Shown piece by piece: positions 23,217 to 45,651 of a stretch of 64,000 nucleotides of DNA; position 1 is the stretch's first letter; each line of letters starts with the position of its first letter. Source of the stretch: an uncultured Flavobacteriales bacterium (lineage in GTDB: Bacteria; Bacteroidota; Bacteroidia; Flavobacteriales_G; Salibacteraceae); contig CAJQLE010000003.1 of NCBI GenBank assembly GCA_905479105.1, positions 186,001 to 250,000 of the forward strand. Direction: 5' to 3'. The position numbers and the translations under genes were made by a program. The notes beneath the pieces are model-generated. The model was not told the DNA's origin. It did no database searches and saw nothing but the letters and a program-made list of their open reading frames with translations.

Positions 23217-23351
23217 ACGTTAAATTATTACACCGAATTCTTATCCTTTCAACATTTGTCAAGCCAAAATGTATTACTTTGAATTACGGTGATCAAAGGT
23301 ATGAATAGCAGTTACAACGAAACACATCATTTTAACGTCTTCAATGTTGTC

Positions 23352-26084
23352 ATGAAGAAGTCTATGCGTGCTTTGCTTTTGTTGTTTTCTATTCTATATG
23401 TGAGCGGTGCTTTTGCCACGCACAATAGAGCAGGAGAGATCATTTATTCACGCGTAAATTCTACCAATCCATTTTTATACGAGATTTCGATCGTCACTTA
23501 CACTAAAACAGGTGGACAAAGTGATGCGGCTGATAGGTGCGATCTTGAGTTGTTTTTTGGTGATGGGTCAAGTGCTGTTGTAAGTCGAGTAAATGGACCA
23601 CTAAATCAGGGTTGTGACCCTGGAGTTGGTGTCGGTGAGATGATTGCCAATCAAACACGCTTTAACGTTTACACTACAACACATGAATTTCCTGGAGCTG
23701 GCGCGTATAAGCTTAGCATGGAAGATCCAATGAGAAATGGAGGTGTTTTGAATATTCCTAATTCTGATAACGTGCCGTTCTATCTTGAAAGTTATCTGAC
23801 AATAGATATCGCAACTGGTGGAAATAGGGCGCCAATCCTTCAAAATCCGCCTATTGATAATGGGTGTGTCGGGATTCCTTTTTACCATAATCCAGGTGCA
23901 GTGGATGAAGATGGTGATAGTCTTGTGTATTCCATTATCGCAAGCAGGTCTTTTAGTGGTCAGCAGATTTCAGGATATCAATTTCCAGATAATGTTGAGC
24001 CCGGATTGAATAACGTGATGTCTATTGATCCGAACACAGGAACACTTTCTTGGATCTCGCCTCAAACCGCTGGAGAGTATAATGTCGCTGTTTTGATTGA
24101 AGAGTATAGAACAAACCCAAATAGTGGAGCCGTGTTCAAAGTGGGTTCGATTATGAGGGATATGCAAATTGATGTCGGAAATTGCCCTCCTAATTCTCCG
24201 CCAGATATTCGATTGGACGATTACGCATGTGTTACTGCAGGTTCCATTTTGGAGAGAACTGCAGTAGCAACTGATGCCGAAGGAGATCGTTTGAATTTAT
24301 CTGCCGTAGGATTCCCTCTTGATGAAGGAAACGGAGGATCGTTAGGGCCGGCAGATAGTGTCACTGGAATTCCCCCGATTGAATTAATTTTTCGCTGGCA
24401 AACGTCATGTGAATTTGTTAGAAAATCACCTTATTGGGTTTACTTTAAAGCGAAGGAAGACGAAGGTCTAGCATCGGATTTAGTGTTTTTTAAAACCTTA
24501 GAGATAGAGGTGAAGTCTCCCGAAGTTGAAATTACATCTGTGTCGCCTCAAGGAACTAGCCTGATAGTTAATTGGACGAGAGCAATATGCGATCAAGCCA
24601 CTGGGTATGATATATATCGATACAATGATAGTTTAGGCTATCAGGCACCAGAGTGTGTTACTGGAGTGCCAAGTGAATTGGGTTATAGATTAATAGGAAG
24701 CGTAAATAGTCTTGAAACAACCAATTTTAATGATGATGATAGGGGAAGGGGACTCATTCATGGTCAGCGGTATTGCTATATAATAGTGACCACATTTGCT
24801 GATGGTTCAGAAAGCTATCCATCTCAAGAAGCCTGTGGGAAGCTTATTAGAGATGTACCGATTCTTAATAAAGTTTCAGTAAACTCTACAAATGCTGAAA
24901 ATGGTAGTGATAGTATTGCCTGGTATAAACCTGTAGAGATGAGGCTGAATTTATTTGGTCCTCCTTATCAGTACAAGTTATCAAGAGCTGAAAGTGAAAA
25001 TGGACCTTTTGAAGTGGTATACATAAGCATAGAATCAAATGATCCTTTCTCATTGGATACTTTGTATGAGGATAATGGTTTAAATACCCTTGAAAACCAA
25101 TATTACTATTCGATTGAAATGCTTAGCGGACCAAACAAGGTTTCAATAGGTCGCTCGGTTTCAGCAGCGTCCATTTACCTGTCATCTGAGTCAAGTGATA
25201 ATACCTTGACACTTAGTTGGAGTTTAGATGTGCCTTGGAAAAATAATGAATATGTGGTCTACAGATTTTCTAATGATCCAGATTCGCTAGAGAAATTCTT
25301 TGTCTTAGATACTGTTAAAGGAACCTCCTACACTGATACTCGACTTGCCAATTTATTCGAGTACAGGTACTTTGTTAAATCAATTGGCGGGTATACTGCT
25401 GAAGACTTAAATGGAGTGCTGGTAAATTGGTCTCAGATTCATACAGGGATTCCGATAGATAATGAACCGCCATGTATTCCTCCAGATTTATTGATTGAAG
25501 GAGATTGTGATTTGGAGCAAACATATATCAGTTGGTCGAATCCAAATGATAACTGCGAAGACACTGATGATGTCATTGGATATCGAGTTTATTATTCCCC
25601 ATTCTTAGGACAGGGTCTTTCTTTATTGGAGGAGATAAATGATCCAAATCAAAGTGAGTTTGTGAAAGAAAGCGAGGGTTCAATTGCAGGTTGTTATGCA
25701 TTAGTGGCAGTTGACAGCTTTGATAATGAAAGCGCAAGGACGCAAGCGCTTTGTGTTGATAATTGTCCTTTATATGAATTGCCGAATGTATTTAGTCCTG
25801 GAAATGACAATGTGAATGACTTGTTTATTCCATTCCCATATAAGTTCGTGGAAAGTATCGACTTAGTGGTATATAACCGTTGGGGAGTGGAGGTTTTTTC
25901 TTCTCAAGACCCTGATATCAATTGGGATGGCACAGAACAGAGGTCTGGGAAGCCACTGCCATCAGGAGTGTATTTTTATGTTTGTCAAGTAAATGAAATT
26001 CGTCTAACCGGAATTGAAAGTCGAGAGCTTAAAGGCTCTTTGCATTTGATTCGTGAAGGTGAAGACGAACCACCAGCATATTAA
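23352..26084 (+). CDS. Gliding-motility-associated surface protein with fibronectin-III-like modules and T9SS type B sorting domain
   Basis: A secreted protein of 910 residues. The ATG at 23352 leads into a signal peptide (MKKSMRALLLLFSILYVSGA); a GTG at 23289 in frame is less likely. The N-terminal module (THNRAGEIIYSRVNSTNPFL, then LFFGDGSS, DEDGDSLVYSI) is one repeatedly found in Bacteroidota surface proteins. Central fibronectin-III-like repeats (YDIYRYNDS, YKLSRAE, YVVYRFSND, YRVYYSPFLG) follow. The last about 95 residues are the type B gliding-motility sorting domain (LPNVFSPGNDNVNDLFIPF, YNRWGVEVF, NWDGTEQRSGKPLPSGVY). It probably acts at the cell surface; specific ligand unknown. The stop is 8 nt before ribE, so they may be co-transcribed. 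Confidence 0.88.
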   Translation: MKKSMRALLLLFSILYVSGAFATHNRAGEIIYSRVNSTNPFLYEISIVTYTKTGGQSDAADRCDLELFFGDGSSAVVSRVNGPLNQGCDPGVGVGEMIANQTRFNVYTTTHEFPGAGAYKLSMEDPMRNGGVLNIPNSDNVPFYLESYLTIDIATGGNRAPILQNPPIDNGCVGIPFYHNPGAVDEDGDSLVYSIIASRSFSGQQISGYQFPDNVEPGLNNVMSIDPNTGTLSWISPQTAGEYNVAVLIEEYRTNPNSGAVFKVGSIMRDMQIDVGNCPPNSPPDIRLDDYACVTAGSILERTAVATDAEGDRLNLSAVGFPLDEGNGGSLGPADSVTGIPPIELIFRWQTSCEFVRKSPYWVYFKAKEDEGLASDLVFFKTLEIEVKSPEVEITSVSPQGTSLIVNWTRAICDQATGYDIYRYNDSLGYQAPECVTGVPSELGYRLIGSVNSLETTNFNDDDRGRGLIHGQRYCYIIVTTFADGSESYPSQEACGKLIRDVPILNKVSVNSTNAENGSDSIAWYKPVEMRLNLFGPPYQYKLSRAESENGPFEVVYISIESNDPFSLDTLYEDNGLNTLENQYYYSIEMLSGPNKVSIGRSVSAASIYLSSESSDNTLTLSWSLDVPWKNNEYVVYRFSNDPDSLEKFFVLDTVKGTSYTDTRLANLFEYRYFVKSIGGYTAEDLNGVLVNWSQIHTGIPIDNEPPCIPPDLLIEGDCDLEQTYISWSNPNDNCEDTDDVIGYRVYYSPFLGQGLSLLEEINDPNQSEFVKESEGSIAGCYALVAVDSFDNESARTQALCVDNCPLYELPNVFSPGNDNVNDLFIPFPYKFVESIDLVVYNRWGVEVFSSQDPDINWDGTEQRSGKPLPSGVYFYVCQVNEIRLTGIESRELKGSLHLIREGEDEPPAY

Positions 26085-28705: not shown

Positions 28706-31700
28706 ATGAAATTTACTATGCACCTATTTACCCGATTTTTCGTTATTGCAGTTATTGCTTTGTTCAGCACATTGATGTATTCAGTGGATTCAAAAGCGCA
28801 ATCTGTAAGTATTACAAGTGTTGATGTTTTGAATGAGTCTTGCGCTGGACTATCTGATGGGCAGATTACAATCAACAAAGCTGGAGGAACAGGTCCTTTT
28901 GGATTCTATATCGTTTTCTTTAATGGGACTTCACTAGATACAATAACGCAGATTTCCAATGTATTCCCGAATTTGGCAGCCACAAACTATGACACATATG
29001 TTGTTGATAGTAATGATCTTACAAAAGATTCTGTGACATCAGTTAATGTCATTCAAGGAAATAACTTTATTTTTTTAGCCTTTAGTAATATTTTACCTGC
29101 TTGTGATACACTATGCAATGGACGAGCTTCTGCTTTAACTTTTGGCGGAACAAATCCAAAAACATATTTATGGGATGACGGGTCGACTGCAGGCCCAACC
29201 AATAACGCACTCTGCGGAGGAGTTAGAGCTGTCACTGTAACTGAGTCAGGTGGTTGCGAAGCAACTAGTTCAATAGTTATTCCCGATGGCCCAGCCATTT
29301 ATGCGGTGCTTGACTCAACAAGTGATGCATCCTGCAATGGTGCAAATGATGGGCGAGCTTATTTCACTCCTCATGGTGGTTACGGACCGTCAACTTCCAC
29401 GGCTAGCTATGTCATTGATCAAACCCAAAATTCTTTCGAACCATATGATACAGCATTCACGGGCGGAACGCTTGTTACTTTGACTGATGATCAAGTTTCG
29501 GCAAGTCTGCCTATCGGATTTAGCTTTGAGTTTTTCGGCAATACATACACTAATTTCAGAATTTCATCAAATGGCTTTATTACTTTCTCGGGCAGTTCTA
29601 ATAATGGTTGCTGTGCGGGACAGAATATTCCTGCAGTAGGTCTTCCGAATGATTTAATAGCGGGTTATTGGGAAGATTTAAATCCAGCTGCAGGGGGTAG
29701 AATAGAATTTTATACCATGGGAGCCGGATCTAATGAAGCACTCGTTGTTAATTTTCTTGAGGTTCCTCATTTTGGTGGAGGGAATCTTGTAACGTTTCAG
29801 ATAGTGCTTTATGAAACATCCAATATCATTCAAATTTTTGGATTGGATCTTAATTCTAACGGAGGTGATCATACTCAAGGTGTCGAGAACAATGCTGGAA
29901 CGGTTGGTTTTACGGGCTCAGGCAGAAATGCTGCGGATTGGTCAGCTGCTAATGACTACATCGCATTTATTCCTGAATCTCAAAACTTCACTTACAACTG
30001 GTCGTCTATCGGATCTGGCACTTCGGCCACCAACTTAACAGCTGGAAATTATATTGTTACCATAACAGATACGAGAAGTTGTAATGATACTATTCAGTTT
30101 CAAATTGCGGAGCCATCACCAATCGTTATTGATACAGTTCTAACACAACCATCTTGTGCTGGAAATGCAGATGGAGCTATTACTGCTTCCGCAACCGGAT
30201 CAAACGGTGGCCCTTTCACGTTTGCCTGGAGTACAGGGGCGACCACTGCGACAATAACTGGTCTCACCGCGGGAACTTATACTGTAACGGCAACAGATGT
30301 CACAGGATGTGCAAACTCTTTGGCAGCTGCGTTGACCGACCCAGCTGCTGTGGCTGCTTCAATTAATCTGGACAATGATGTTAGCTGTTTCGGAGGAGCT
30401 GATGGTCAATTGACTGCAAATGGAGCTGGTGGAAGCCCTGGTTATACATTCTTATGGACGACAGGCTCGACCAATCAAACTATTTCTTCACTGATAGCCG
30501 GAAATTATACTGTAACTGTTACAGATATTAATGGTTGTACGGATACTACATCACAAGTGGTTTCTCAACCACCAACATTGGTAACGGTAACGACTTCCTC
30601 AACGGCTGTGAGCTGCTTTGGTGGGAATGATGGAACTGCCACTGCGAATAATGCAACAGGTGGAACACCAGGTTATACTTATTTGTGGAATACGGGCGCA
30701 ACAAGTCAAACGATTAATACCCTGATTGCAGGAACTTATATAGTGACAGCCACAGATGCTAATGGATGTACCGATACTGCTCATGCAATCGTTGGACAAC
30801 CCGCAACAGGAGTTGATGTGACTGTAAACTTAGTCACTGACGTTTCGTGCAATGGATTAACGGATGGAGGAATTACTATTAATAATCCTACAGGTGGAAC
30901 ACCACCATATACTTTTTTATGGTCAAACGGATCTACATCACAGAACTTAAGTGGTGTAGGAACTGGAACATACATTGTCACAGCAACAGATGCTGGTGGA
31001 TGTACAGATACTGTTTCTGCCTTTGTAGATGAGCCAGCAATATTGGCTGTGGACACCACATCAACTACTCAACCAACATGTGCTGGGAGTACAAATGGAT
31101 CAATAACTATTGCCGCTACTGGAGGAACAGCACCAGTAACGTTCTTGTGGAGTACTGGTTCTACTGCGACAACCGTTAACGGGCTGGTTGCAGGAATCTA
31201 TACTGTGACGGCTACTGATGTTAACGGATGTACAGATAATCTTTCAGTGACGTTAGTGGATGGACCAGGTGTTACAGCAGATGTTTCTCCGTTTGATCCC
31301 ACGTGTGCAGGCGAAAATTCAGGTTCTGCAATTGGCGGAGTCATCTCTGGAACAGGAACGCTGCCATTCAGTTATGCATGGTCAACAGGTGCTTCAAATC
31401 AGTTTTTAACTGGACTTACAGCAGGTACTTATACCTTGACTGTCACTGATGGTGCTGGATGTCAAGACGATACTACGTTTACTCTGATTGATCCACTTGC
31501 GGTTATTGCAACTATCATTGATTCAATCAATCCTACGTGTGCAAATAACGATGGATCTACCCAAGCCCTTGGGACAGGTGGTTCGGGAGCGTTGACTTAC
31601 GCTTGGAGTAATGGTGGTAACACTGCATTAATTTCCAATTTATCAGCCGCGACTTACACGGTAACCGTAACTGACGCTAATGGATGTTTTGACACAGCTA

Positions 31701-34700
31701 ACGTTGTGTTGGATGTAGCTCCGTTGCTTACCGCGAATGGAGTTCTTATTGCTAACGAAACTTGTATAACGAATGACGGGTCTGCTTCAGTTGCCGTTGT
31801 TGGCGGAACGGTTCCTTTCACATTTGCTTGGACAGGAGGTGGAAATACACAAACCATCATTAATCTTGCCGCAGGAACTTACACTGCAACTGTTACGGAT
31901 GCAAATAACTGTTCGGATACAGCTCAAGTAATTGTGGCTGATAGTTGTGCCTGCAATTGGACTGCATCTGGCGTTTTAGTGAATGATGCCCTATGTAATG
32001 GTGAGAATTCAGGAAATGGGACTACAACTAACACGGGTGCGACCGCTCCGATTACTTACCTGTGGTCTGATGGAAGCACAAATGATTCGCTTATTAATGC
32101 TCCTGCTGGAACTTACATTGTTACTCTAACAGATGCAAATGGCTGTACTGATACAGCATCGGTAATTATCAACGAGCCAACTATACTGTCAGCTACAGTA
32201 TATACACCTCCAGTTATTCCTGGATTTACATATATTGGTGAAAATGGAAATCAGTTTATCTATTACCACGCGGCATCTGAAACATGGACGGCAGCAAGGG
32301 CAACTTCTGTGGCTGCTGGTGGAGATTTGATCGTTATTAGTGATGCTGTTGATCAAGCTTATTATAGTTCTGTCCTACCAGGTAATAGTTGGATTGGACT
32401 AACAGATGAAGTATTAGAAGGAACTTATGTTTGGGTTGATGGAACTGTGGCTACTTTCTTCAATTGGAATGCAGGTGAGCCAAACAATTTTGGAGGCGAT
32501 GAAGATTATATTCACTTTACTGGAGCCAACGATTTTTGGAATGACCTCGCTGGTTTCCAAGTAAGACCATATGGAATGGTCATCGATAAATCATCATTAA
32601 ACCTCAATAACGTTACATGTAATGGAGGTAATGATGGCTCTGCTGTGATAACAGGTGCTGGAGGATCATTACCATATACCTATGCATGGAGCAATGGTGC
32701 TATAACAGATACAATTACTGGACTTACTGCAGGAACTTATATCGGTACTATTACAGATAATAACGGATGTACAGCTGTTGACACAGCGGTTATTTCAGAG
32801 CCTGCACCTATTGTATTCAATGGCTTTACAGGAATAACAAATCCAAGTTGTGATGATGCTTGTGATGGAGCTGCTGCTGCCTCTGCAACTGGAGGTGTTG
32901 CTCCTTTAACCTACGCTTGGAGTTCAGGCTCTGCATCAGCTACTGCTACTTCACTTTGTGGAGGAGGCCATACGGTGACTATCACAGATGCTAACGGATG
33001 TGATACCGTTCAAATGGTTGCATTAGTAGAGCCACCAGTCATTTATGCGGTGGTGGATAGCACCGATAGCGCAAGCTGCAATGGAGTAGCTGATGGAGCG
33101 GCCTATTTGTCTGGTTATGGTGGTACTGTAGCCCCAACCAATACTTCTGAGTATGTGATCGATCAAACCGAAGGAGCATATGAACCATATCCTCAAGGAC
33201 GTCCTTGGAATGCACATAATTACAAAACGGTCACCCTCCAAGATGACGCTAATTCTGATACGACTAACATTTTTGGAGGTGCTAACTTCAGTTTCTTTGG
33301 AAACAACCATACTGACTTTGTCATGAGCTCTCAAGGCTTTATTTCTTTTGACCTAACATTAGCCAATGTGGTTAGTCCAGGTCAATTCTCTAATAGTTTG
33401 GCCTTGCCAAGTGCTGCTGCGAATCAACCAAATAATATTATTGCTGCGTTTTGGGAAGATCTTGACCCGAGCGTTGGAAACGCCACTATAGAAACTTATT
33501 TAATTGGAACAGTCCCTAACCGAATAAGGGTTGTTAATTACATTAATGTTGACCACTTTTTAAATGCGACAAATGGTTCTGGAGATATAAGCACATTTCA
33601 AATAGTACTTTATGAATCTTCTAATATTATTCAGATTCATTCCGAAGTGCTCGATCCTGACCTAGGGGGTCTGCATGTTCAAGGAATTGAGAACGCTACA
33701 GGAACAGTAGCTTATACGCCATCTGGAAGGAATAATACTAACTTCAGTGCTACTAACGACTACGTTGCATTCATTCCGAAAACACAAAACTTTAATTACA
33801 CATGGTCTAGTGTTGGCACGGGAGCTTCTTCCTCAGTGCTTCCTGCTGGAAACTATACGGTAACTGTTGCTGATGGAATTTGCAACGATGTTGTCAATTT
33901 CACGATTGATGAGCCCGCTTCTTTATTAGCTTCTATTACTTCTAGTGTCGCACCAACTTGTTTTGGTGGTTCTGATGGACAAGCAACAGTAGCGCCTTCG
34001 GGCGGTGACGCTCCATATACATTCCTTTGGACGAGCGGTGAGACTACTGCTACAGCATTAGGTTTGAGCGTAGGACTGAATACTGTAACTGTTACAGATG
34101 CAAACGGCTGCACTCAAACAGCGAGTACTACATTACCAAATGGAGCAGCAATTAATGTTGGAATTGCTTCAACGAATAGTTTCTGTTTTGTTTGTACAGG
34201 AACCGCAACTGCTACTGTTGTTGGGGCATTATCTCCATTCACATATAGTTGGAGTACTGGAGTGGTTAATAATGTTGCATCCACATCAAATCAACTTACA
34301 GCCTTATGTTCTGGTCCTTATGGTGTTACAGTTACAGATGCCAACGGTTGTGTGGACTCAAATGCCACAAATGTCAGTGATAATTTTGTTCCTAATGTTA
34401 CGATTACAGTGACCCCAGCCAGTTGTGCCAATACTTGCGATGGAACAGCAGATGCTAATTATACATGTTTCTTTGGATGTCAGCCATATAGATGGTATAG
34501 TGGACTGGATACTACTAACCTTATAGGTACTGGAGATCTTATTACAGGTCTTTGTCCTGGAACATATTTAGGAAGACTTACTACTAACTTCGGATGTGAT
34601 GGTTATGATACGATAATTATCAACGCTCCAGCACCTATAATTCTTGTTATGGATTCCATCGATGCGACCTGTGGAGCGGCTAATGGAATTGCAACTGTTA

Positions 34701-37700
34701 ATGCTTCAGGTGGTTCCGCTCCTTACACATACTTGTGGAGCAATGGAGGGACTGCAGATACAATTACTGGACTCATAGCGGGAACGTATATTGTAACAGT
34801 AACGGACAATAATCTTTGCGCAGATACTGCTCAAGTTATTGTGAATGCACCTTCATCCTTAGTTGCGTCAATCATTAATCCAATTAATGCATTATGTGAT
34901 GGTTCAACCAATGGTTCGGCTGAAGCTCAAGGTTCATTAGGAACTGCACCTTACACCTTCCTGTGGGATAATGGTGAAACTTCTTCAATTGCCGTGGCGC
35001 TTGATTCAGGAACCCATTGCGTTACAGTTACCGATGCTATTGGATGTGCAGATACAGCTTGTATAAGTATTACGGATCCTGATCAAATCACCTTTTTATT
35101 TACTGAAACTCCTATTTCATGCGGAGGTGCTGGAAATGATGGTGCGCTTACCGTAGCTTCTATTGGTGGCACTGGTGTACATACCTATTTATGGAATACT
35201 GGAGCTGCAGGGAATTCAATTACAGGTTTGGTGACTGGCACTTACACAGTGACAGCAACTGATGCCAACGGGTGTCAGAATAGTGAATCTTACACCATGG
35301 ATCCTCCAGGAAACTTCACAGTTGCAATGGTTGATAGCTTAGATATAGATTGTTTTGGAAATAATAATGGTGAGGCTGAAGTTCAAGCAATAACAGGTGG
35401 GTCAGGATCATATTCTTTCCTATGGGATAATGGTTCTACTACCAATATTGTCACAAACTTGACCTCTGGCCTTCACTCAGTTACAGTTACAGACCTAATC
35501 ACCACTTGCTTGGATACAGCGTCAGTTACTATTGACGAGCCAACACAATTGATAGCGTCTATTGATTCTAGCGTTGATAACCTTTGCTTCAATGGAACGG
35601 ATGGCTCAGCTGCTGGATCTGGAAGTGGTGGAACACCACCTTATACATTGACGTGGTCAAATGGAGATGTGGGAGTTTTGGCAGATTCATTACCAGCTGG
35701 AATGGTTACAGTTACAGTTACAGATGCAAATGGGTGTACTGATACGGACCAAATAATGATTGGTCAACCAGCTACAGGTTTAGAGGCCTCAGTTGTGGTA
35801 AACGCTCAGCCATTGTGTGCCGGAGATAGCGCGACCATTACTGCCTCTGCAATTGGTGGAAGTGGAGTCTATGCTTTCTTATGGCCTAATGGCGCAACTA
35901 CAACAACTGTTTTACTTCCTGCAGGATCATATTGTTTGACAGTAACTGACGGAGGAGTCTGTGAGGATACAGCCTGTGTTACAATCATTGATCCACTTCC
36001 TGTTATCGCTACTGTAACCATTATCACGCCTGCTTGTCCAAGTGGAAATGACGGTACACTTACACTAGCAGGTTCTGGAGGAGATGGAGGTCCTTATACT
36101 TATCTATGGGATGATGCTTCTACGAATCCGACTCGTACAAATCTTACGGCTGGCACATACTTTTTTACAATAACGGATGCTAGTGGATGTTCAGGAAACT
36201 CTTCTGCAATTCTTGTTGATCCAGCTGGCATGACAGCTACATTCCCTACTACAACTATTTCCTCCTGTGGAACTTGCAACGGAACAGCTACTGTAAGTAT
36301 TGCAAACGGAACAGCGCCTTATACCTTTGCTTGGTCTAGTGGATCTGCAACGGCAAATGGTTCGAGTCTATGTTCAGGATCTAATTCTGTTACAGTTACT
36401 GATGCCAATGGTTGTATAGATACTTTCTTCGTGAATATTGGAAGTATAGGTGCAGATACGGTTGTGGCAACTGTTGTTAATAATGTCACTTGCAATGGTG
36501 GTGTTGATGGATCAGCATTAGCAACGTATGTCTGCAACGTTGCTCCATGTACAATTGCTTGGATTGATTCAGCAACCAACAATAATGTTGGTAATGCAGA
36601 TCTAGCTACTGGTTTGAGCGCGGGCACATACTACGCTCAATTAACGAATGATTCAGGTTGTATAGGTTTAGATACGATAACTATTACAGAACCAACACCA
36701 GTAGTAGGTTCTACTACTTTTATCTCTAGCGTTTCTTGCCCTGGAGGTAATGATGGATCAGCCTCAGTTTCTGCCACAGGTGGTTCACCGGGTTATACCT
36801 TCTTATGGGATAACGGTGAAACAAATGCTACAGCCATTGCACTTGGTGTTGGAACGCATTGCGTTACTGTCACCGATACACTTGGATGCACTGATACGGC
36901 ATGTGTAAACATTGGTGAGCCTGCCAACGGTGTATCGGTAACGGCAAGTATCGTGACTGGGCTCTTGTGTAATGGCGGTAATAATGGTTCGGTAACTGCG
37001 GTTGGCTCAGGTGGGACAGCTCCTTATTCATTCACTTGGAATGGAGCTATTGTTTCTACAACGCTGAATAACTTGTCTGCTGGCTCTTACATTGTAGAGA
37101 TAACGGATGCAGGCGGTTGTACAAGTCTAGACACTGTTGTCCTTATTGATCCAATTGCGATCACCGGAGCGTTCTCTGGTGTTTTTGATCCATCTTGTTT
37201 CGGTGAAACAAATGGTTCGGCCACATTAACTGGGAGTGGGGGAACAGGTCCTTACACTTATCTGTGGGCATCTGGAAACACCAATCAAACTGAAACAGGA
37301 TTGACTGCAGGACAGCATTGTGTTGATATCACGGATGCGAATGGTTGTACAGAACAATTCTGTGTTACTTTGATTGACCCAGCGCCTATCACGAATACGT
37401 TCACTGCAATAACCGGTTCTAGCTGCACAGTATGCGATGGAACGGCAACTGCCAATCCGCTTCCTGCTGCTGGTGCTCCTTATACCTTCTTATGGAATAA
37501 CGGACAAACCACAGCAACCAACGATTCACTTTGTGCAGGAATTAATCAAGTAACAATTACGGATGCTTCAGGCTGTGAGTTTATCGACAATGTGCCAATC
37601 AATGCAAACGGTGCTGACCTTGTTTCAGCCGACAGTATTGATGCTTCTTGCGGAAACTGTGACGGTTTAGTATTCGCAACGTACACATGTACAACAGCTC

Positions 37701-40700
37701 CTTGCACCTTAGAATGGACTGACCTTGGATCTGGTTTAGTAATTGGAACAACGGATACAATATTCAATTTATGTGCTGGATCTTACAGTATAGAATTGAC
37801 AAATGGTGCGGCCTGTATTTCTTCAGACATTGTTTCTGTGAACGTTCCTGATCTTATTGATCCTAATGAAATAATTACAGACGCTTCTTGCTTCGGTTCT
37901 TGTGATGGTGCAATTGCACTAGCTCCAACTGGAGGATCTGGTGTATTCACATTTGCTTGGAGTAATGGTCCAACTTCATCAAATAACACAGGTTTGTGTG
38001 CTGGAGATTATACAGTCACAATAAGTGATGGTGCAGGTTGCGATTCCATAACAACATTCACCATTGACCAACCAAGTGAAATCACTCTTGATAGTACAGT
38101 GGTTGATGCATCTTGTTCTGGCATATGCGATGGATCAATTGCAATCATTGCTTCTGGAGGCGCGGGAGGTTATTCCTTCAATTGGAGTCCAGTTCCTGGA
38201 AATGGAAATGGATTGTCATTGGCTTCTGGCTTATGTGCAGGAACGTATTTCTTAACGGTTACTGATGCGAATGGATGTACAACCCTTGACACATTTAACA
38301 TAGGGCAGCCAGCAGCTATTGTGCAGAATGCGGTAACTGTAAATGGTGCTACTTGTGGAGTATGCGATGGATCGATTATTCCAACAATAACTGGTGGAGC
38401 TGGAGGCTTTACTTATGCATGGTCTACCGGTGCCATTTCAGATACCTTAGGATCTCTTTGCTTCGGCTTCTATGATGTAACAGTGACAGATGCTGCAGGT
38501 TGTTTCGAAGTATTCGGATACCCAGTATCTGAAACTACTGGTCCAGCAATTACGCTGACTTCTACAAATACTTCAGCGAGTGGGGTGTGTGATGGAACAG
38601 CAACGGTCAACTCAGGTGTATCTCCGTTGACCTACTTATGGTCAAATGGTGATGTGACTCAAACGACAAGTAACTTGTGTGCAGGATTCTATATTGTCAC
38701 TGTAACTGATGTCAATGGATGTAATACAGTAGACACAATTACAATCACAGAACCAGATGCTCTTGATGTAACATTTGGTGTTACTGAAATAACGTGTGCT
38801 GGAAACGGATGTGATGCAGAAATTCTAGCAATTGTAACTGGCGGAGTTAGCCCATACATATTTGCTTGGTCTAATGGAGCAACGACTGAATTGATCACTG
38901 GACTTTGCGCTGATACTTACGTATTGACAGTTACGGATGATAATGGTCAGGTGCTGATTGATTCAGTAACTATAACTGATCCACAGCCATTTATAATTGT
39001 GTCTGTTGCTAACGATGTGTCTTGTCCTGGTGAGTGTGATGGAAACATTTCAATGACTGTATCTGGTGGTAATCCGCCTTACACTATTCTTTGGAATACA
39101 GGTGATACCACACTTGCAATTACTGACCTGTGTGGCGGTAACTACAGCGTGACAATTACAGACACGGCTGGCTGTTCTGATAGTTTAGACTTCATTATTG
39201 ATGATCCAGCACCAATTGTTGGAAATGTTGTTTCTCAAGTGGAACCAGATTGTCAAGTGAATAATGGTTCAATTACAGTTTCTGCTTCTGGTGGAAATGG
39301 AGGCCCTTACGCTTACGAATGGCTAGATGCTTTAGGAAACGCATTAATTCCTGCTCAAACAGATAGTGTTGCTTCTAACTTATTTGCCGGTATCTATGGT
39401 GTAAGAATAGTTGATGTGAATGGTTGTATAGACACCACAGGCATCATTCTTAATAATTTGAACGCACCAGTGATTGATCTTGATCTATTGGTTGACGTAA
39501 GTTGTTTCGGGGAATGTGATGGAGCTATCAATACTACAATATCAGGTGGTGTTGCTCCTTATAACATCCTCTGGTCTAATGGCGACACAACGGATGATAT
39601 CGATTCACTTTGTGCTGGAGATGACACCATTGCTGTGGTTGATGCTAACTTGTGTGCTTCATTTAATATCTATACGATATCGCAACCTACAGAAATCACG
39701 ATTGCCGCAATTGATGTAACTGATGTTACGTGTGGAGCTGATTGCGATGGTATCATTGATATCAGTATCGCTGGTGGCACCGAGCCTTATGTATTTGCTT
39801 GGAGCAATGGCAGCACTGATAGCACGATTACTGGACTTTGTGCAGGTGATTATACACTTACAGTTACGGATGGAAATGGATGTATATTCATTACAACTGA
39901 AACGGTTGGTGGTCCTTCTCCTTTGGTCATTACACTTGACTCAATTGATGATGCAACTTGTACGAACACAGGTGATGGAGCGGTTCAAATCACTGTTACA
40001 GGTGGTTCAGCTCCCTACACATACAATTGGATAAGTGATACAACTTCTATCTTGACTAGCTCTGATTTAAGTGGAGTATTGGCGGGCAATTACACCCTCA
40101 TAGTAACTGACGTGAATGGATGTACCCTAGCTGATACGTTCACCATCGATGCTGAATTCTTTGTTGATGTAATTGCAATGGACGATATTGAAGTGTGTCC
40201 ATTTACAAACCAAGTTCCTATTACAGGAACTAACACGGGTGCTTCATCTGTAAGATGGTTGAACCTAAATGGCGTTGTAGCAGCTTCAGGTAACTCACTA
40301 GTTGTAAATACAACTTCACAGACGACAACGTACATCTATGAAGGTGTAAATGGAGTTTGTGTTGATCGAGACACAGTCAACATTACTTGGGCTCCAGGTC
40401 CTGGAATTGATGCTGGTCCTGATAAGTCGATTGTTCCAGGTGATATAACATCAATTGGAGGTGCTCCAACCGCGAGAGCCGGAATTGAAGTTATATGGAC
40501 ACCAGCTCAGGATTTAACGAGTATTACGGAATACAATCCTCAAGCTAACCCATTGGAGACAATCACATACTATGTAAGCGCAACTGATCCTGATGGATGT
40601 TTCGGAATAGATAGTGTCACCATAACGGTAGAAGAGTTAGTTGATCCTGTAGGTGGATTCTCTCCAAATGGAGATGGTGTGAATGACTTCTTCCTGATCG

Positions 40701-40909
40701 ATCGAATTGGTGACTACCCGAATGCGATAGTTCAGATATTCAATCGATGGGGTAACTTAATTTACGAGTCATCCGCTGGATATACTAATCCTTGGAATGG
40801 TAAGCATAACGGCAAAGAATTGACCGTTGGAACTTACTACTACGTAATTGATCTGAAGGATGATCAAGTGAAAAACTTAGTTACTGGACCAGTTACGATT
40901 CTTAAATAA
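28706..40909 (+). CDS. Giant SprB-like repeat adhesin (about 4070 residues) with T9SS type B sorting domain
   Basis: About 4067 residues from the ATG at 28706 (28718 is also possible); either leads into a signal peptide (LFTRFFVIAVIALFSTLMYS). By eye I count about 42 SprB-type repeats of roughly 80-95 residues, each with a Cys-x-G...DG start, a GG-x-PYTYxWSNG core and a TVTDANGC end. Three modules break the run: two copies of a nidogen-like domain (29408-29990 and 33152-33790) and one C-type lectin-like domain (32221-32590). The C-terminus has Ig/PKD-like domains, then the gliding-motility type B sorting signal (SPNGDGVNDFFLID, IFNRWGNLIYES, PWNGKHNGKELTVGTYYY). SprB of Flavobacterium is a cell-surface adhesin moved by the gliding motor; here adhesion and carbohydrate binding are inferred from the domains. 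sprF follows directly. Confidence 0.92.
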   Translation: MKFTMHLFTRFFVIAVIALFSTLMYSVDSKAQSVSITSVDVLNESCAGLSDGQITINKAGGTGPFGFYIVFFNGTSLDTITQISNVFPNLAATNYDTYVVDSNDLTKDSVTSVNVIQGNNFIFLAFSNILPACDTLCNGRASALTFGGTNPKTYLWDDGSTAGPTNNALCGGVRAVTVTESGGCEATSSIVIPDGPAIYAVLDSTSDASCNGANDGRAYFTPHGGYGPSTSTASYVIDQTQNSFEPYDTAFTGGTLVTLTDDQVSASLPIGFSFEFFGNTYTNFRISSNGFITFSGSSNNGCCAGQNIPAVGLPNDLIAGYWEDLNPAAGGRIEFYTMGAGSNEALVVNFLEVPHFGGGNLVTFQIVLYETSNIIQIFGLDLNSNGGDHTQGVENNAGTVGFTGSGRNAADWSAANDYIAFIPESQNFTYNWSSIGSGTSATNLTAGNYIVTITDTRSCNDTIQFQIAEPSPIVIDTVLTQPSCAGNADGAITASATGSNGGPFTFAWSTGATTATITGLTAGTYTVTATDVTGCANSLAAALTDPAAVAASINLDNDVSCFGGADGQLTANGAGGSPGYTFLWTTGSTNQTISSLIAGNYTVTVTDINGCTDTTSQVVSQPPTLVTVTTSSTAVSCFGGNDGTATANNATGGTPGYTYLWNTGATSQTINTLIAGTYIVTATDANGCTDTAHAIVGQPATGVDVTVNLVTDVSCNGLTDGGITINNPTGGTPPYTFLWSNGSTSQNLSGVGTGTYIVTATDAGGCTDTVSAFVDEPAILAVDTTSTTQPTCAGSTNGSITIAATGGTAPVTFLWSTGSTATTVNGLVAGIYTVTATDVNGCTDNLSVTLVDGPGVTADVSPFDPTCAGENSGSAIGGVISGTGTLPFSYAWSTGASNQFLTGLTAGTYTLTVTDGAGCQDDTTFTLIDPLAVIATIIDSINPTCANNDGSTQALGTGGSGALTYAWSNGGNTALISNLSAATYTVTVTDANGCFDTANVVLDVAPLLTANGVLIANETCITNDGSASVAVVGGTVPFTFAWTGGGNTQTIINLAAGTYTATVTDANNCSDTAQVIVADSCACNWTASGVLVNDALCNGENSGNGTTTNTGATAPITYLWSDGSTNDSLINAPAGTYIVTLTDANGCTDTASVIINEPTILSATVYTPPVIPGFTYIGENGNQFIYYHAASETWTAARATSVAAGGDLIVISDAVDQAYYSSVLPGNSWIGLTDEVLEGTYVWVDGTVATFFNWNAGEPNNFGGDEDYIHFTGANDFWNDLAGFQVRPYGMVIDKSSLNLNNVTCNGGNDGSAVITGAGGSLPYTYAWSNGAITDTITGLTAGTYIGTITDNNGCTAVDTAVISEPAPIVFNGFTGITNPSCDDACDGAAAASATGGVAPLTYAWSSGSASATATSLCGGGHTVTITDANGCDTVQMVALVEPPVIYAVVDSTDSASCNGVADGAAYLSGYGGTVAPTNTSEYVIDQTEGAYEPYPQGRPWNAHNYKTVTLQDDANSDTTNIFGGANFSFFGNNHTDFVMSSQGFISFDLTLANVVSPGQFSNSLALPSAAANQPNNIIAAFWEDLDPSVGNATIETYLIGTVPNRIRVVNYINVDHFLNATNGSGDISTFQIVLYESSNIIQIHSEVLDPDLGGLHVQGIENATGTVAYTPSGRNNTNFSATNDYVAFIPKTQNFNYTWSSVGTGASSSVLPAGNYTVTVADGICNDVVNFTIDEPASLLASITSSVAPTCFGGSDGQATVAPSGGDAPYTFLWTSGETTATALGLSVGLNTVTVTDANGCTQTASTTLPNGAAINVGIASTNSFCFVCTGTATATVVGALSPFTYSWSTGVVNNVASTSNQLTALCSGPYGVTVTDANGCVDSNATNVSDNFVPNVTITVTPASCANTCDGTADANYTCFFGCQPYRWYSGLDTTNLIGTGDLITGLCPGTYLGRLTTNFGCDGYDTIIINAPAPIILVMDSIDATCGAANGIATVNASGGSAPYTYLWSNGGTADTITGLIAGTYIVTVTDNNLCADTAQVIVNAPSSLVASIINPINALCDGSTNGSAEAQGSLGTAPYTFLWDNGETSSIAVALDSGTHCVTVTDAIGCADTACISITDPDQITFLFTETPISCGGAGNDGALTVASIGGTGVHTYLWNTGAAGNSITGLVTGTYTVTATDANGCQNSESYTMDPPGNFTVAMVDSLDIDCFGNNNGEAEVQAITGGSGSYSFLWDNGSTTNIVTNLTSGLHSVTVTDLITTCLDTASVTIDEPTQLIASIDSSVDNLCFNGTDGSAAGSGSGGTPPYTLTWSNGDVGVLADSLPAGMVTVTVTDANGCTDTDQIMIGQPATGLEASVVVNAQPLCAGDSATITASAIGGSGVYAFLWPNGATTTTVLLPAGSYCLTVTDGGVCEDTACVTIIDPLPVIATVTIITPACPSGNDGTLTLAGSGGDGGPYTYLWDDASTNPTRTNLTAGTYFFTITDASGCSGNSSAILVDPAGMTATFPTTTISSCGTCNGTATVSIANGTAPYTFAWSSGSATANGSSLCSGSNSVTVTDANGCIDTFFVNIGSIGADTVVATVVNNVTCNGGVDGSALATYVCNVAPCTIAWIDSATNNNVGNADLATGLSAGTYYAQLTNDSGCIGLDTITITEPTPVVGSTTFISSVSCPGGNDGSASVSATGGSPGYTFLWDNGETNATAIALGVGTHCVTVTDTLGCTDTACVNIGEPANGVSVTASIVTGLLCNGGNNGSVTAVGSGGTAPYSFTWNGAIVSTTLNNLSAGSYIVEITDAGGCTSLDTVVLIDPIAITGAFSGVFDPSCFGETNGSATLTGSGGTGPYTYLWASGNTNQTETGLTAGQHCVDITDANGCTEQFCVTLIDPAPITNTFTAITGSSCTVCDGTATANPLPAAGAPYTFLWNNGQTTATNDSLCAGINQVTITDASGCEFIDNVPINANGADLVSADSIDASCGNCDGLVFATYTCTTAPCTLEWTDLGSGLVIGTTDTIFNLCAGSYSIELTNGAACISSDIVSVNVPDLIDPNEIITDASCFGSCDGAIALAPTGGSGVFTFAWSNGPTSSNNTGLCAGDYTVTISDGAGCDSITTFTIDQPSEITLDSTVVDASCSGICDGSIAIIASGGAGGYSFNWSPVPGNGNGLSLASGLCAGTYFLTVTDANGCTTLDTFNIGQPAAIVQNAVTVNGATCGVCDGSIIPTITGGAGGFTYAWSTGAISDTLGSLCFGFYDVTVTDAAGCFEVFGYPVSETTGPAITLTSTNTSASGVCDGTATVNSGVSPLTYLWSNGDVTQTTSNLCAGFYIVTVTDVNGCNTVDTITITEPDALDVTFGVTEITCAGNGCDAEILAIVTGGVSPYIFAWSNGATTELITGLCADTYVLTVTDDNGQVLIDSVTITDPQPFIIVSVANDVSCPGECDGNISMTVSGGNPPYTILWNTGDTTLAITDLCGGNYSVTITDTAGCSDSLDFIIDDPAPIVGNVVSQVEPDCQVNNGSITVSASGGNGGPYAYEWLDALGNALIPAQTDSVASNLFAGIYGVRIVDVNGCIDTTGIILNNLNAPVIDLDLLVDVSCFGECDGAINTTISGGVAPYNILWSNGDTTDDIDSLCAGDDTIAVVDANLCASFNIYTISQPTEITIAAIDVTDVTCGADCDGIIDISIAGGTEPYVFAWSNGSTDSTITGLCAGDYTLTVTDGNGCIFITTETVGGPSPLVITLDSIDDATCTNTGDGAVQITVTGGSAPYTYNWISDTTSILTSSDLSGVLAGNYTLIVTDVNGCTLADTFTIDAEFFVDVIAMDDIEVCPFTNQVPITGTNTGASSVRWLNLNGVVAASGNSLVVNTTSQTTTYIYEGVNGVCVDRDTVNITWAPGPGIDAGPDKSIVPGDITSIGGAPTARAGIEVIWTPAQDLTSITEYNPQANPLETITYYVSATDPDGCFGIDSVTITVEELVDPVGGFSPNGDGVNDFFLIDRIGDYPNAIVQIFNRWGNLIYESSAGYTNPWNGKHNGKELTVGTYYYVIDLKDDQVKNLVTGPVTILK
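28800..40150 (+). repeat. Array of about 42 divergent SprB-type coding repeats
   Basis: Repeats of about 240-290 bp lie within the giant gene, each beginning with a Cys-x-G...DG unit and ending with T-D-A/x-N-G-C. The copies are well diverged at DNA level, and no two neighbouring copies look near-identical. The first three copies are more degenerate. The repeat count is a visual count from translation. Confidence 0.85.
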
Positions 40910-40918
40910 TTGAAAACT

Positions 40919-41863
40919 ATGAGATTTATGAAAAAGCTCATCGCGATATCCATTGTCCTGATTGCCTTTACGCAAGCTAAAGCTCAACAGCTAGAGCAGT
41001 GGACACAGTTCTTTTTGAATGAATACATGGTTAATCCAGCTGTGTCAGGAACGGAAGATTACTTTCAAGCCAATGCGCTATATCGCGATCAATGGGTCGG
41101 AATTCAGGATGCGCCTCGCACGTATTATTTAAGTGTTCAAGGACCAATCGTTAAGCAAACAATGGGAATAGGTGGAACCATTTTCAGCGATGTAGTAGGT
41201 CAAACCCGCAGAAACGGTTTTCAAGCATCTTATGCCTACCATTTGAAGGTTTCTGAAGATTACAAATTGAGTTTTGCTTTATCCACGGGTATGCTTCAGT
41301 TTGCGATTGATGGAAGCAAGATTGATTTGGATCAAGCGAATGATATTGCATTGAGCAGTGGTTTGATGTCCTTGTGGTCATTAGACTTTGGTTCGGGTGT
41401 GCGTTTCTCTGCTAAGAATTGGCATGCTGGTATTTATGTACCTCAAATTGCAGGATTGAAAGCACAGTTTTTCAATGACTACTCTGAGACGGAAAGCGTG
41501 TTAGCGCGTCACTATTATATCAATGGAGGTTATCGATATGACTTTGATGATACATGGGCCATTGATGCGAACTTCTTAGGTAAGATTGTGGGTTCAATTG
41601 ATATTTACGATACGCAGGTAAGAGGAATCTACAAAGACATGGTTTGGTTAGGTTCATCCATTCGATATGCTTTTGTATCCGGAGCTTCGGTGCAAGCAAT
41701 AGGATTCATGACAGGATATCAGTTTGAGAACAACTTAAGTATAGGATATGCATACGACTTGAATGTTGGAAAAATTGGAGCAGCCACTTCTGGCTCACAT
41801 GAGATAGTGCTGGGAATAAGGTTTAATAAACCGAATAAAGCACCGCTAATTCCTGCAGAATAA
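40919..41863 (+). CDS. sprF: PorP/SprF family T9SS-associated outer-membrane protein
   Basis: A protein of 314 residues (ATG 40919, or 40928 four codons on); signal peptide LIAISIVLIAFTQAKAQ. The start of the mature protein, QQLEQWTQFFLNEYMVNPAVSG, and the following glycine-rich barrel strands (QASYAYHLKVSEDYKLSFAL, YINGGYRYDFDDTW, FMTGYQFENNLSIGYAYDL) are hallmarks of the PorP/SprF family. SprF is needed for surface delivery of SprB in F. johnsoniae. The start lies 9 nt after the SprB-like stop, so the pair is one unit. A perfect terminator follows. Confidence 0.93.
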   Translation: MRFMKKLIAISIVLIAFTQAKAQQLEQWTQFFLNEYMVNPAVSGTEDYFQANALYRDQWVGIQDAPRTYYLSVQGPIVKQTMGIGGTIFSDVVGQTRRNGFQASYAYHLKVSEDYKLSFALSTGMLQFAIDGSKIDLDQANDIALSSGLMSLWSLDFGSGVRFSAKNWHAGIYVPQIAGLKAQFFNDYSETESVLARHYYINGGYRYDFDDTWAIDANFLGKIVGSIDIYDTQVRGIYKDMVWLGSSIRYAFVSGASVQAIGFMTGYQFENNLSIGYAYDLNVGKIGAATSGSHEIVLGIRFNKPNKAPLIPAE

Positions 41864-41925: not shown

Positions 41926-43314
41926 ATGTACATAGAACAGCTTTACACCGGTTGCTTAGCTGAAGCAGCATACTATATAGAGTCTAATGGCGAAGCAGCC
42001 ATCATAGATCCGTTAAGAGAAACGGAGCCTTACTTACAAAAAGCGCAAGAGCGCGGAGCAAAAATCAAATACATATTCGAAACACATTTTCATGCTGACT
42101 TCGTAAGTGGTCATTTAGACCTAGCTGCTAAAACTGGAGCGCCAATCGTTTACGGACCAACGGCTGAAACAGATTTTGTTATTATTAAAGCGACAGATGG
42201 TCAAATCTTCGAGCTCGGATCACTCAAAATAAAGCTGCTTCATACACCAGGACATACTCCAGAATCGAGTTGCTATTTGTTGTTTGATCAAAACGGAAAA
42301 GAACATTCTATCTATACCGGTGACACACTCTTTATAGGTGATGTTGGAAGACCAGATTTAGCCCAAAAAGGTGGCGAGATGACTGCTGAAGACATGGCGG
42401 CAACACTTTATGATTCGTTGCACAATAAGATCATGACCTTGCCAGATGATATTACTGTGTATCCAGCGCATGGTGCAGGATCAGCGTGTGGAAAAAACAT
42501 GTCTAGCGAAACTTCGGCTTTACTCGGAGATCAGAAACAAACCAATTATGCATTGGGTAATTTGACCAAAGAAGAGTTTGTGAAGGAATTGACTACAGGA
42601 ATATTACCTGCGCCTCAATACTTTGCTAAAGCAGCAGCTCAGAATAAGAAAGGCTACAAATCCATTGATGATGTTTTTGAAAGTTCAATGAATGCCATGT
42701 CAATAGAGCAGATGCTTGAAGCTCAGAACAAAGGAGTGATGGTGCTCGATACGCGTAAAGAAGGCGAGTTTAGCGATGGCCATATTCCGAATGCGTGGTA
42801 CATCGGATTGCATGGGCAGTTTGCACCGTGGGCAGGAGCATTGATTGTGGATATGCATCAACCCATAGTTATTGTTGCGGAAGAAGGTAAAGAACAAGAA
42901 GCCATTATGCGTTTAGCCCGTGTGGGTTATGATAATGTGATTGGATATCTTGAAGGTGGTTATGCAGCTTATGCAGCTTCTGGAAAAGCAGTGAGTGTGG
43001 TTCCATCCATTACGCCAGAAGAGTTTAAAGCCAATGCACCAGAAGGTCAAGTGTTGGATGTGCGCAAGCCATCAGAATATGACAATTGCCATATAGAGAA
43101 TGCACAGCTGTTGACACTCGATTACCTCAATGAGCATTTAGATGAGGTCAACAAAGACAAACCATACGTCATTCATTGTAAAGGAGGATATCGTTCTGTC
43201 ATAGCTTGGAGTATTCTCGCTTCTAAGGGCTTTAAGAATATTACAGATATCAAGAAAGGCTTTGATGGATTAAAGGCTGCTGGCGTGCCTTATGTGCAGC
43301 CTGAGATGGCTTAA
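41926..43314 (+). CDS. MBL-fold hydrolase fused to two rhodanese domains (persulfide dioxygenase-like)
   Basis: A protein of 462 residues. The ATG at 41926 has AAAGG just upstream. The metallo-beta-lactamase half resembles ETHE1/persulfide dioxygenases: H54, H56, D58 and H63 in HFHADFVSGH, then LLHTPGHTPESSCYLL, and TGDTLFIGDVGRPDL. The second half has two rhodanese modules. The first (about 270-360: VMVLDTRKEGEF) lacks a catalytic Cys, while the second carries the active-site loop HCKGGYRS. Related enzymes oxidise glutathione persulfide and handle sulfane sulfur; here sulfide detoxification is an inference from family. It overlaps the convergent deacetylase gene by 4 bp. Confidence 0.88.
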   Translation: MYIEQLYTGCLAEAAYYIESNGEAAIIDPLRETEPYLQKAQERGAKIKYIFETHFHADFVSGHLDLAAKTGAPIVYGPTAETDFVIIKATDGQIFELGSLKIKLLHTPGHTPESSCYLLFDQNGKEHSIYTGDTLFIGDVGRPDLAQKGGEMTAEDMAATLYDSLHNKIMTLPDDITVYPAHGAGSACGKNMSSETSALLGDQKQTNYALGNLTKEEFVKELTTGILPAPQYFAKAAAQNKKGYKSIDDVFESSMNAMSIEQMLEAQNKGVMVLDTRKEGEFSDGHIPNAWYIGLHGQFAPWAGALIVDMHQPIVIVAEEGKEQEAIMRLARVGYDNVIGYLEGGYAAYAASGKAVSVVPSITPEEFKANAPEGQVLDVRKPSEYDNCHIENAQLLTLDYLNEHLDEVNKDKPYVIHCKGGYRSVIAWSILASKGFKNITDIKKGFDGLKAAGVPYVQPEMA

Positions 43315-43925
43315 AGTTGAATAGGCTCCATGCAGAAGCCTTTATCACGATAAAATGCTAGACTTAATCTCAAGGCCTCGATGATTCGGGGCTTTGCTTT
43401 TTCATTGTCATGAAAAACAATGATGCTTCCTGCTTTTACTTTTTTGGTGGCGAACGCAAAGCACTGCTCACTTGAATAGCTGGCATCAAAGTCGGCACTT
43501 AGATCGCTCCACATGATGAGTTTATATTCCTTTTTCAAGGCTTTTGCCTGCGACAAAGTGATTTCACCATAAGGCGGCCGCAATAGGTTAGAGCTAATAA
43601 CCTCTGCGGATGCTTTAATATCTGCGAAATACACTTCATCTTTTGTTTTCCATCCGCTTATATGAGAATTGCTGTGCAATCCAATGGCGTGACCAGCATT
43701 TGTAATTCGCTCTACAATGTCTGGATATCTACGCACGTTTTCGCCCACCAAAAAGAATGTAGCCTTTGCTTCATATTCATCTAAAAGGTCCAACACCTCT
43801 AAGGTGATCTCAGGATGCGGCCCATCATCAAACGTGAGATAGATGGCATTTCGATCATTGGGAAGATCAAAAATGAAATCCTTGGCTAAGGGCTTTACAA
43901 CAGAAGGGATATGTTTTAAATACAA
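43311..43925 (-). CDS. Polysaccharide deacetylase (NodB homology) family protein
   Basis: A protein of 204 residues that appears to start at a TTG (43923-43925); I see no ATG before the conserved part. NodB motifs: TFDDGPHPE with Asp33/Asp34, the metal-binding pair His84 and His88 (HSNSH), the catalytic-site motif RPPYG, and a C-terminal IVFHDNEKA. No signal peptide is visible, which is normal for a short form of the family but leaves the location open. Family members de-N-acetylate chitin oligomers, peptidoglycan or xylan; the substrate here is unknown. It is transcribed divergently from tRNA-Gln. Confidence 0.88.
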   Translation of the reverse strand: MYLKHIPSVVKPLAKDFIFDLPNDRNAIYLTFDDGPHPEITLEVLDLLDEYEAKATFFLVGENVRRYPDIVERITNAGHAIGLHSNSHISGWKTKDEVYFADIKASAEVISSNLLRPPYGEITLSQAKALKKEYKLIMWSDLSADFDASYSSEQCFAFATKKVKAGSIIVFHDNEKAKPRIIEALRLSLAFYRDKGFCMEPIQL

Positions 43926-44629: not shown

Positions 44630-45586
44630 TTATTTCAAGTGATAAGTTGTCAATCTTTTATCGCCTGATTTTGAGAATAACCCTTTTTCAATTCCAGTTT
44701 TTAAGTCTCTACTGGCTGAAGCACTGCTTAATTGCTTGAAGACTTGCATATAGTCTTTTCTGGTAAATGAGTCCATCTTTAGAGAGCAGAAGTGTTGTAG
44801 TCTATTTTCCTGTGTCATATTCACAGATACAGAATTTCCAATTAATTCTGCTAGGGTGTCATTTACAACGGAAAGCATATATTCAATGAATTCAGTCGAT
44901 TTTCCTGTTTTGTCACAGATGGAGAGTACTTTGTAATAGTCTTCTTGTGACTTTGATATTAATGTTTCAAAGGGTAAATATTGAAACACAGGATATTTTG
45001 ACATTAATATTATTGTTTGCCATAATCGCCCCATTCTGCCGTTTCCGTCTGTAAAAGGATGGATAAATTCCATTTCGTAGTGGAAAACGCAACTTTTTAT
45101 TAAAGTGATTTCCTCGTCATTTTTTAAGTAATCAAAAAGGTCTTTCATTAAATATTGGACATTTTCAGATGGAGGTGCCAAGTGCTCAATTTTAGAACCT
45201 TTTACAATACCCACTCCTTCTTTTCGAAATGCTCCTGGATTATCTATTAATCCTTCCATTAGTGTCTTGTGAGCTTTTAAAAAGGAGTTAATTGAATCAA
45301 CTTTATAGTCAATTATCGACTCGTAAACTTTTATGGCATTTTGAACTTCTTTGATGTCTTTTGATGGGCCAATCACTCTTTTATTTTCGAGTATTGCGGT
45401 TATTTGCTGTTCTGTTAGAGTGTTGCCTTCAATCTGCAAAGAAGAGTGAATCGTTTTGATTTGATTTTGTTTTCGAAGGCTAGGGGAGGACTTTATTAAA
45501 AATGAAGCATTTACTTCTCCAATTTTCTCGGAGACACTAGTAATTAGTCCTAAAATCTTAGTATTAATTTCATAGGGAGGCTTCAT
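44630..45586 (-). CDS. Fic family AMP-transferase-type protein, self-inhibited class
   Basis: A protein of 318 residues from the ATG at 45584-45586; an in-frame TTG at 45610 is unlikely. The Fic active-site loop HPFTDGNGRMGR (His at 176, Asn of GNGR) is complete, so it should transfer AMP or another phosphate-linked moiety to a target Ser/Thr/Tyr. The motif SLQIEGN at residues 49-55 matches the inhibitory helix (S/T)xxxE(G/N), placed N-terminal as in class II Fic proteins, so no separate antitoxin is needed. A winged-helix-like C-terminus (about 260-318: FTRKDYMQVFKQLSSASA, then KGLFSKSGDKRLTTY) follows. It forms the last cassette of the array. Target unknown. Confidence 0.9.
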   Translation of the reverse strand: MKPPYEINTKILGLITSVSEKIGEVNASFLIKSSPSLRKQNQIKTIHSSLQIEGNTLTEQQITAILENKRVIGPSKDIKEVQNAIKVYESIIDYKVDSINSFLKAHKTLMEGLIDNPGAFRKEGVGIVKGSKIEHLAPPSENVQYLMKDLFDYLKNDEEITLIKSCVFHYEMEFIHPFTDGNGRMGRLWQTIILMSKYPVFQYLPFETLISKSQEDYYKVLSICDKTGKSTEFIEYMLSVVNDTLAELIGNSVSVNMTQENRLQHFCSLKMDSFTRKDYMQVFKQLSSASASRDLKTGIEKGLFSKSGDKRLTTYHLK

Positions 45587-45651
45587 AATAGTATCATTTG
45601 ATAGTATCAAAGATAGGTTTTCTATGAAATTGGTCGGCTTTTTAATATGGT

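Follow-up and report, generated by a model that had tools for sequence, protein, structure and literature searches.

A giant SprB-repeat adhesin with a predicted C-type lectin domain, nested nidogen-like modules and a cysteine-free carrier

A giant adhesin encoded next to its own carrier

The window, by which we mean the whole 64-kb stretch of DNA analysed here, belongs to a draft genome of 2.79 Mb in 7 contigs from a marine bacterium of a gliding lineage and encodes a 4067-amino-acid (aa) SprB-repeat adhesin that carries a C-type lectin-like domain (CTLD) and two nidogen-like modules. Directly downstream lies the gene for a PorP/SprF-family carrier. Taken as a whole, the locus probably encodes a T9SS type B adhesin that binds glycans in a Ca2+-dependent manner and is statically anchored to the cell by its own carrier. 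Each part of this system is known in kind; the novelty lies in an EPN lectin without disulfides being joined to an SprB giant, in the loop in which modules are nested and in the carrier free of cysteines. The adhesin class itself is known, but the combination of a lectin with an SprB giant is new and well supported; in the open-access literature that we searched, the coverage of which is incomplete, we came across no previous description of an SprB-repeat protein with a C-type lectin. The main features of the locus are as follows.

28706..40909, + strand: giant SprB-repeat adhesin, 4067 aa (open reading frame and domain searches)
28706..28801, + strand: putative Sec signal peptide MKFTMHLFTRFFVIAVIALFSTLMYSVDSKAQ, read by eye from the sequence
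28838..40153, + strand: SprB repeat array, about 40 repeats (37 by Pfam; Pfam and repeat model)
40655..40873, + strand: T9SS type B sorting domain (CHU_C / TIGR04131; profile matches)
40910..41863, + strand: cognate PorP/SprF-family carrier, 317 aa, no cysteine (likely ATG 40919)

The adhesin frame is open from 28643, starts with the ATG at 28706 and ends with the stop at 40909. Pfam searches identified 37 SprB repeats (E 1e-232) and a C-terminal CHU_C type IX signal (E 1e-23), and the NCBIfam type B sorting domain TIGR04131 matched the C terminus with 60 bits (cut-off 35). Repeats were further delimited with a 76-position SprB model built from the repeats of the 64-kb window. The carrier frame starts at the base directly after the adhesin stop, and its product matched PorP/SprF with 230 bits against a cut-off of 90.55, so that both hallmarks of a T9SS type B substrate, a C-terminal TIGR04131 domain and an adjacent PorP/SprF gene, were found. 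Neither the adhesin C-terminal domain (CTD) nor the carrier had a useful relative in the PDB. We propose that the adhesin would be exported by Sec and then across the outer membrane by the T9SS, and that the downstream-encoded carrier would hold it on the cell surface.

Several other genes of the region and the genome were recorded alongside. Three genes upstream of the giant adhesin, a 931-aa T9SS type B protein (23289-26084, + strand; CHU_C, and TIGR04131 with 40.9 bits against 35) has no carrier gene directly beside it. Downstream of the locus are a polysaccharide deacetylase (43311-43925, − strand) and a Fic-domain protein (44630-45610, − strand), and a 621-aa protein with SprB-like repeats is encoded on the opposite strand at 59912-61777 (−). 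Outside the window, the same genome holds a second giant SprB-repeat frame of 4251 aa (G000:C4:463162-474432), which has no adjacent PorP/SprF match.

The carrier lacks the cysteines that link SprF to the gliding track

The whole carrier protein contains no cysteine and hence no twin tail cysteines, and tail cysteines were likewise absent from its orthologues in the genus. In Flavobacterium johnsoniae, the SprF tail cysteines C324 and C326 bond to GldK and are needed for linkage to the track, not for export; without them, SprB is exported and anchored and is mostly stationary, and gliding is lost, with residual short movements (PMC12635249). Because the carrier has no cysteine with which to link GldK, which in the same genome does contain cysteines, the adhesin is predicted to be fixed, by a rule that comes from one species. 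Type B adhesins of F. johnsoniae can be mobile or static, depending on CTD and shuttle, and the static substrates go with a PorE-like neighbour and the dynamic ones without (PMC12618676). No PorE-like gene was seen beside the carrier, which counts against a fixed adhesin, and this carrier family may couple to the track differently. On balance, our analysis makes static anchoring rather than gliding likely but not certain.

The alternative is a mobile gliding adhesin resembling F. johnsoniae SprB, in which the carrier would sit on the GldJ/GldK track through some other contact and the lectin would give traction on glycan-coated surfaces. Such an adhesin could draw on GldB, GldD and GldK, all over their cut-offs in the same genome, and on a GldJ-like protein with two matching pieces (384 and 73 bits against a cut-off of 458); it would agree with the SprB repeats and the type B CTD, with the missing PorE-like neighbour, as for the dynamic substrates of F. 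johnsoniae, and with the short movements that remain without SprF cysteines. We nevertheless regard it as unlikely, since neither the carrier nor its genus orthologues have cysteine tails, loss of the SprF cysteines immobilizes most SprB and abolishes gliding, and a better candidate exists in the carrier next to gldJ, the sole one of those found in this genome with two tail cysteines. None of these carriers shows the exact CXC tail. The initial annotation of this DNA had spoken of 'gliding-type' surface export; type B export by the T9SS is supported, whereas the gliding part of the proposal is weakened by the cysteine-free carrier. Static anchoring therefore remains our preferred reading in what follows.

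A disulfide-free C-type lectin-like domain within the repeat array

Our own repeat model places the lectin after the 12th repeat and before the 13th, as had been proposed, with its motifs at the expected places (WIGLTDE at residue 1229, EPNNF at 1258 and WND at 1278).

32180..32803, + strand: lectin cassette made up of the CTLD and one SprB repeat, which orthologues either have or lack as a whole (orthologue comparison)
32219..32593, + strand: CTLD, residues 1172-1296, no cysteine (Pfam, PDB matches, AlphaFold)
32615..32830, + strand: SprB repeat 13, mostly inside the lectin cassette (repeat model)

Lectin_C (PF00059) matched residues 1191-1282 with 33.4 bits against a cut-off of 22.6 (E 8e-8; 39.9 bits in the genome scan), and sequence matches in the PDB were to mannose receptors, CD23, DC-SIGN and mannose-binding proteins (MBPs). 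AlphaFold modelled the lectin with a pLDDT of about 90 (model residues 80-200), and the model superposed on CL-K1 with Z 21.7 and 1.1 Å over 120 residues, on human MBP with Z 20.3 and on many other CTLDs with Z 19-22, with Foldseek E values down to 3.5e-9. By profile and predicted fold, the region is a member of the CTLD superfamily. The C-terminal half aligns with an EPNN form of CD23, with E, N, E, N and D identical; from established knowledge of MBP-type lectins, we take E1258, N1260, E1266, N1279 and D1280 to be the Ca2+ ligands, and on this assignment all five ligands of the principal site are kept. Both things on which the initial annotation had made glycan binding depend, a confidently predicted lectin fold and calcium ligands, are thus present. 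Named relatives of the lectin region come from metagenome-assembled genomes (MAGs) labelled Flavobacteriales UBA4422 and Salibacteraceae.

Residues 1172-1296 contain zero cysteines, and the canonical animal disulfides C1-C4 and C2-C3 are missing; without them the lectin differs from the canonical animal form yet stays in the CTLD superfamily. Other T9SS proteins in the group contain lectins from this family that retain one cysteine pair (EDC...WND.xC). Judged by its EPN and WND motifs, the lectin would bind mannose-, glucose- or fucose-type sugars in a Ca2+-dependent manner. A eukaryotic or algal glycan had been suggested as its ligand; glycans of prey, of particles or of the cell's own exopolysaccharide fit the prediction equally well.

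Two nidogen-like modules are nested in SprB repeats and arose by block duplication

Two further modules interrupt the repeat array, each between two parts of one SprB repeat.

29102..29323, + strand: SprB repeat before nidogen-like module 1 (NIDO1); its best match among the 38 others is the repeat before module 2 (NIDO2)
29312..29398, + strand: NIDO1 carrier repeat, first part (model positions 1-22 of 76; repeat model)
29408..29989, + strand: NIDO1, residues 235-428, nested in an SprB repeat
29981..30139, + strand: NIDO1 carrier repeat, second part (model positions 19-72; repeat model)
33050..33142, + strand: NIDO2 carrier repeat, first part (model positions 1-20; repeat model)
33152..33787, + strand: NIDO2, residues 1483-1694, nested in an SprB repeat
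33785..33943, + strand: NIDO2 carrier repeat, second part (model positions 19-72; repeat model)

The two modules are real homologues, as had been noted, with 46% identity (E 4e-54) and shared motifs: YVIDQT at residues 235 and 1483, FFGN at 276 and 1530, WEDL at 322 and 1583 and TFQIVLYE at 363 and 1630. Their name was more difficult to place. Neither window copy matched Pfam NIDO (PF06119) at E 0.1, the profile was matched by 4 of the 19 family members, and only an orthologue in genome G019 passed its cut-off (26.7 against 25 bits). The module sequence had no match in the PDB, and Foldseek and VIA-align found no convincing structural relative of the model (best Z 4.6), which does not indicate a new fold. 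'Nidogen-like', as the modules had been called, is therefore a fair but distant name, supported by the G019 orthologue and not by the window copies or by structure. With a profile of the two copies, relatives were detected in 32 of the 42 genomes examined from the order, with eight matches in the adhesin's own genome.

The modules had been described as following an ASCNG repeat; they are instead nested inside a repeat. In each of the 17 nidogen-like carriers, the stretch that precedes the module corresponds to model positions 1-2 to about 20 (a few of these first halves are weak) and the sequence after it to positions 19-21 to about 72 of 76. Because the flanks match the two parts of the repeat model, the module is inserted in one loop of the SprB repeat, and these alignments place it at the same fixed loop in every relative examined. 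The repeat likewise resumes at position 19-20 in the other nidogen-like proteins of the same genome. AlphaFold gave low confidence to the SprB repeats around both modules, and the nesting is read from the sequence profiles alone.

In another genus, g5 (L036 and L037; genomes G013 and G014), an unrelated domain of about 200 aa occupies the same SprB loop, where the second half of the repeat alone was recognized. Orthologues in G028, G017, G026 and G022 (L070, L072, L071 and L033) have a further inserted domain of about 225 aa after NIDO2, TILTNDTSVCAG...TFPTPPDTSYWF, which the window protein lacks. It is plausible, though we put this forward tentatively, that the loop at about position 19-20 of 76 serves as a socket for varied binding domains and that larger cassettes come and go between repeats, which would re-arm a conserved locus across species.

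The spacing of the two modules, 3.74 kb, agrees with the earlier estimate of about 3.7 kb, and the proposal that a whole block was duplicated held up on comparison of the 39 repeats. The repeats directly before NIDO1 and NIDO2 are mutual best matches with a score of 180 (next best 127 and 167). The first halves of the two carrier repeats score 76 against each other and at most 50 against other repeats; for the second halves the mutual score is 136, and the best scores with other repeats are 116 and 105. The repeats after the modules show no comparable pairing. We therefore conclude that at least one repeat, the carrier repeat and the module were duplicated together. The duplication is old, because both copies have orthologues in other species.

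The lectin cassette varies at a conserved locus

Within the stretches compared, the order lepA, giant adhesin, carrier and MBL/rhodanese gene is conserved in other species of the genus. The lectin is present at the adhesin locus in four species (the window's genome, G018, G021 and G022) and absent from the adhesin orthologues in G027, G024, G028, G017, G026 and G019. In G027 the equivalents of repeats 12 and 14 adjoin, and the unit gained or lost is therefore residues about 1159-1366, the lectin with one repeat; G028, G017 and G026 are also without the cassette there. Many orthologues of the genus do without the lectin, which is therefore not central to the function of the adhesin. G017, G020, G024 and G027 carry a lectin in another T9SS protein. 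We dropped a rule of one lectin adhesin per genome, at either of two loci, because the N-terminal part of the second protein of the window's genome lies beyond the contig end.

Where the lectin is present, few if any segments of the protein are more conserved than it and its repeat. Lectin identity to that of the window is 93-94% in G018, 88-89% in G021 and 71-72% in G022, and the main repeat array is 83, 81 and 47% identical where the lectin is 94, 89 and 72%. Fourfold sites are saturated, with near-random identity everywhere (19-50%, against 33% expected), so that the conservation of the lectin points to purifying selection and not to recent sharing. Recent horizontal transfer of the cassette into G022 (72-78% identical, against 47% for the array) was rejected as unsupported, the fourfold sites being near random. 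The idea of a hypervariable, diversity-generating lectin was dismissed as well, given that hardly any part of the protein is better conserved. Another genus has a lectin with similar linkers (IPGF.YIGE ... GMVI.K) after an SprB repeat, which makes old inheritance followed by several losses the simplest reading, although the cassette may also have been gained by exchange. In genus g5 (L036 and L037; G013 and G014), a lectin 45% identical to that of the window follows a later repeat. NIDO1 of the G018 orthologue, which is otherwise 82% identical, is 48% identical to that of the window and 67% to that of G024 (L031 7440-8060), as if one module had been exchanged.

These comparisons, all made on draft genomes, bear on the idea that recombination between repeats adds and removes the lectin with its repeat, allowing species or strains to exchange binding modules on one adhesin. 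The clean absence of the unit in G027 and its absence in G028, G017 and G026 would fit, as would the scatter of lectin holders, which are not one clade on the carrier tree, and the different type of NIDO1 in G018. Synonymous sites are saturated and do not point to recent transfer, the pattern can also be accounted for by old inheritance and several losses, and the genomes are drafts; we thus consider such switching doubtful. Less probable still, the CTLD would serve a structural role or bind proteins, as in intimin and invasin, or bind ice, like type II antifreeze proteins, instead of acting as a sugar receptor: the fold is versatile, CTLDs without disulfides can also bind proteins, all cysteines are lost and the Ca2+-independent antifreeze protein 2zib is among the structural matches (Z 19.5), but the five principal Ca2+-site ligands (EPN ... 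ED ... WND, site 2) are kept in the lectins of G018, G021 and G022, EPN and WND also in another genus, and sugar-binding collectins and MBP are among the nearest solved structures.

Comparison with known adhesins

Like F. johnsoniae SprB/SprF, the window locus combines a giant SprB-repeat protein, a type B CTD and a carrier gene directly downstream; it differs in having a C-type lectin and two nested nidogen-like modules and in a carrier without the C-X-C tail that links SprF to GldK. With EPN-type C-type lectins (MBP, CD23, DC-SIGN and mannose receptor), the lectin shares the fold and all principal Ca2+-site ligands, but it is bacterial, has no disulfides and is embedded in a repeat stalk. 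RemA, whose lectin is presumably of the sea-urchin-egg-lectin type, is likewise a T9SS surface adhesin with a lectin domain in gliding-lineage Bacteroidota, although it has a type A CTD, a lectin of another family and no giant SprB array. RemA has been linked to galactose-containing EPS (PMC8481357, PMC12618676). The static adhesin and shuttle Fjoh_3952/Fjoh_3951 (PMC12618676) resemble the window pair in the type B CTD and the dedicated PorP/SprF carrier; their operon includes a PorE-like gene, unlike that seen here, and no lectin is reported there.

Proposed role and implications

We propose that the roughly 40 SprB repeats would form a long stalk displaying two nidogen-like modules, each inserted in a repeat loop, and, at the boundary of repeats 12 and 13, a Ca2+-dependent CTLD with a mannose-type EPN/WND site. 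Fixed in place by its carrier, the adhesin would attach the cell to glycans on other cells, particles or exopolysaccharide. SprB repeats themselves have no obvious binding site; the presence and absence of the cassette at one orthologous locus isolates a small lectin with a predicted calcium site. The cysteine-free carrier is a natural case in which to ask whether it is the SprF cysteines that set mobile adhesins apart from fixed ones, and the fixed insertion loop gives a guide to binding modules that lie hidden in other SprB proteins.
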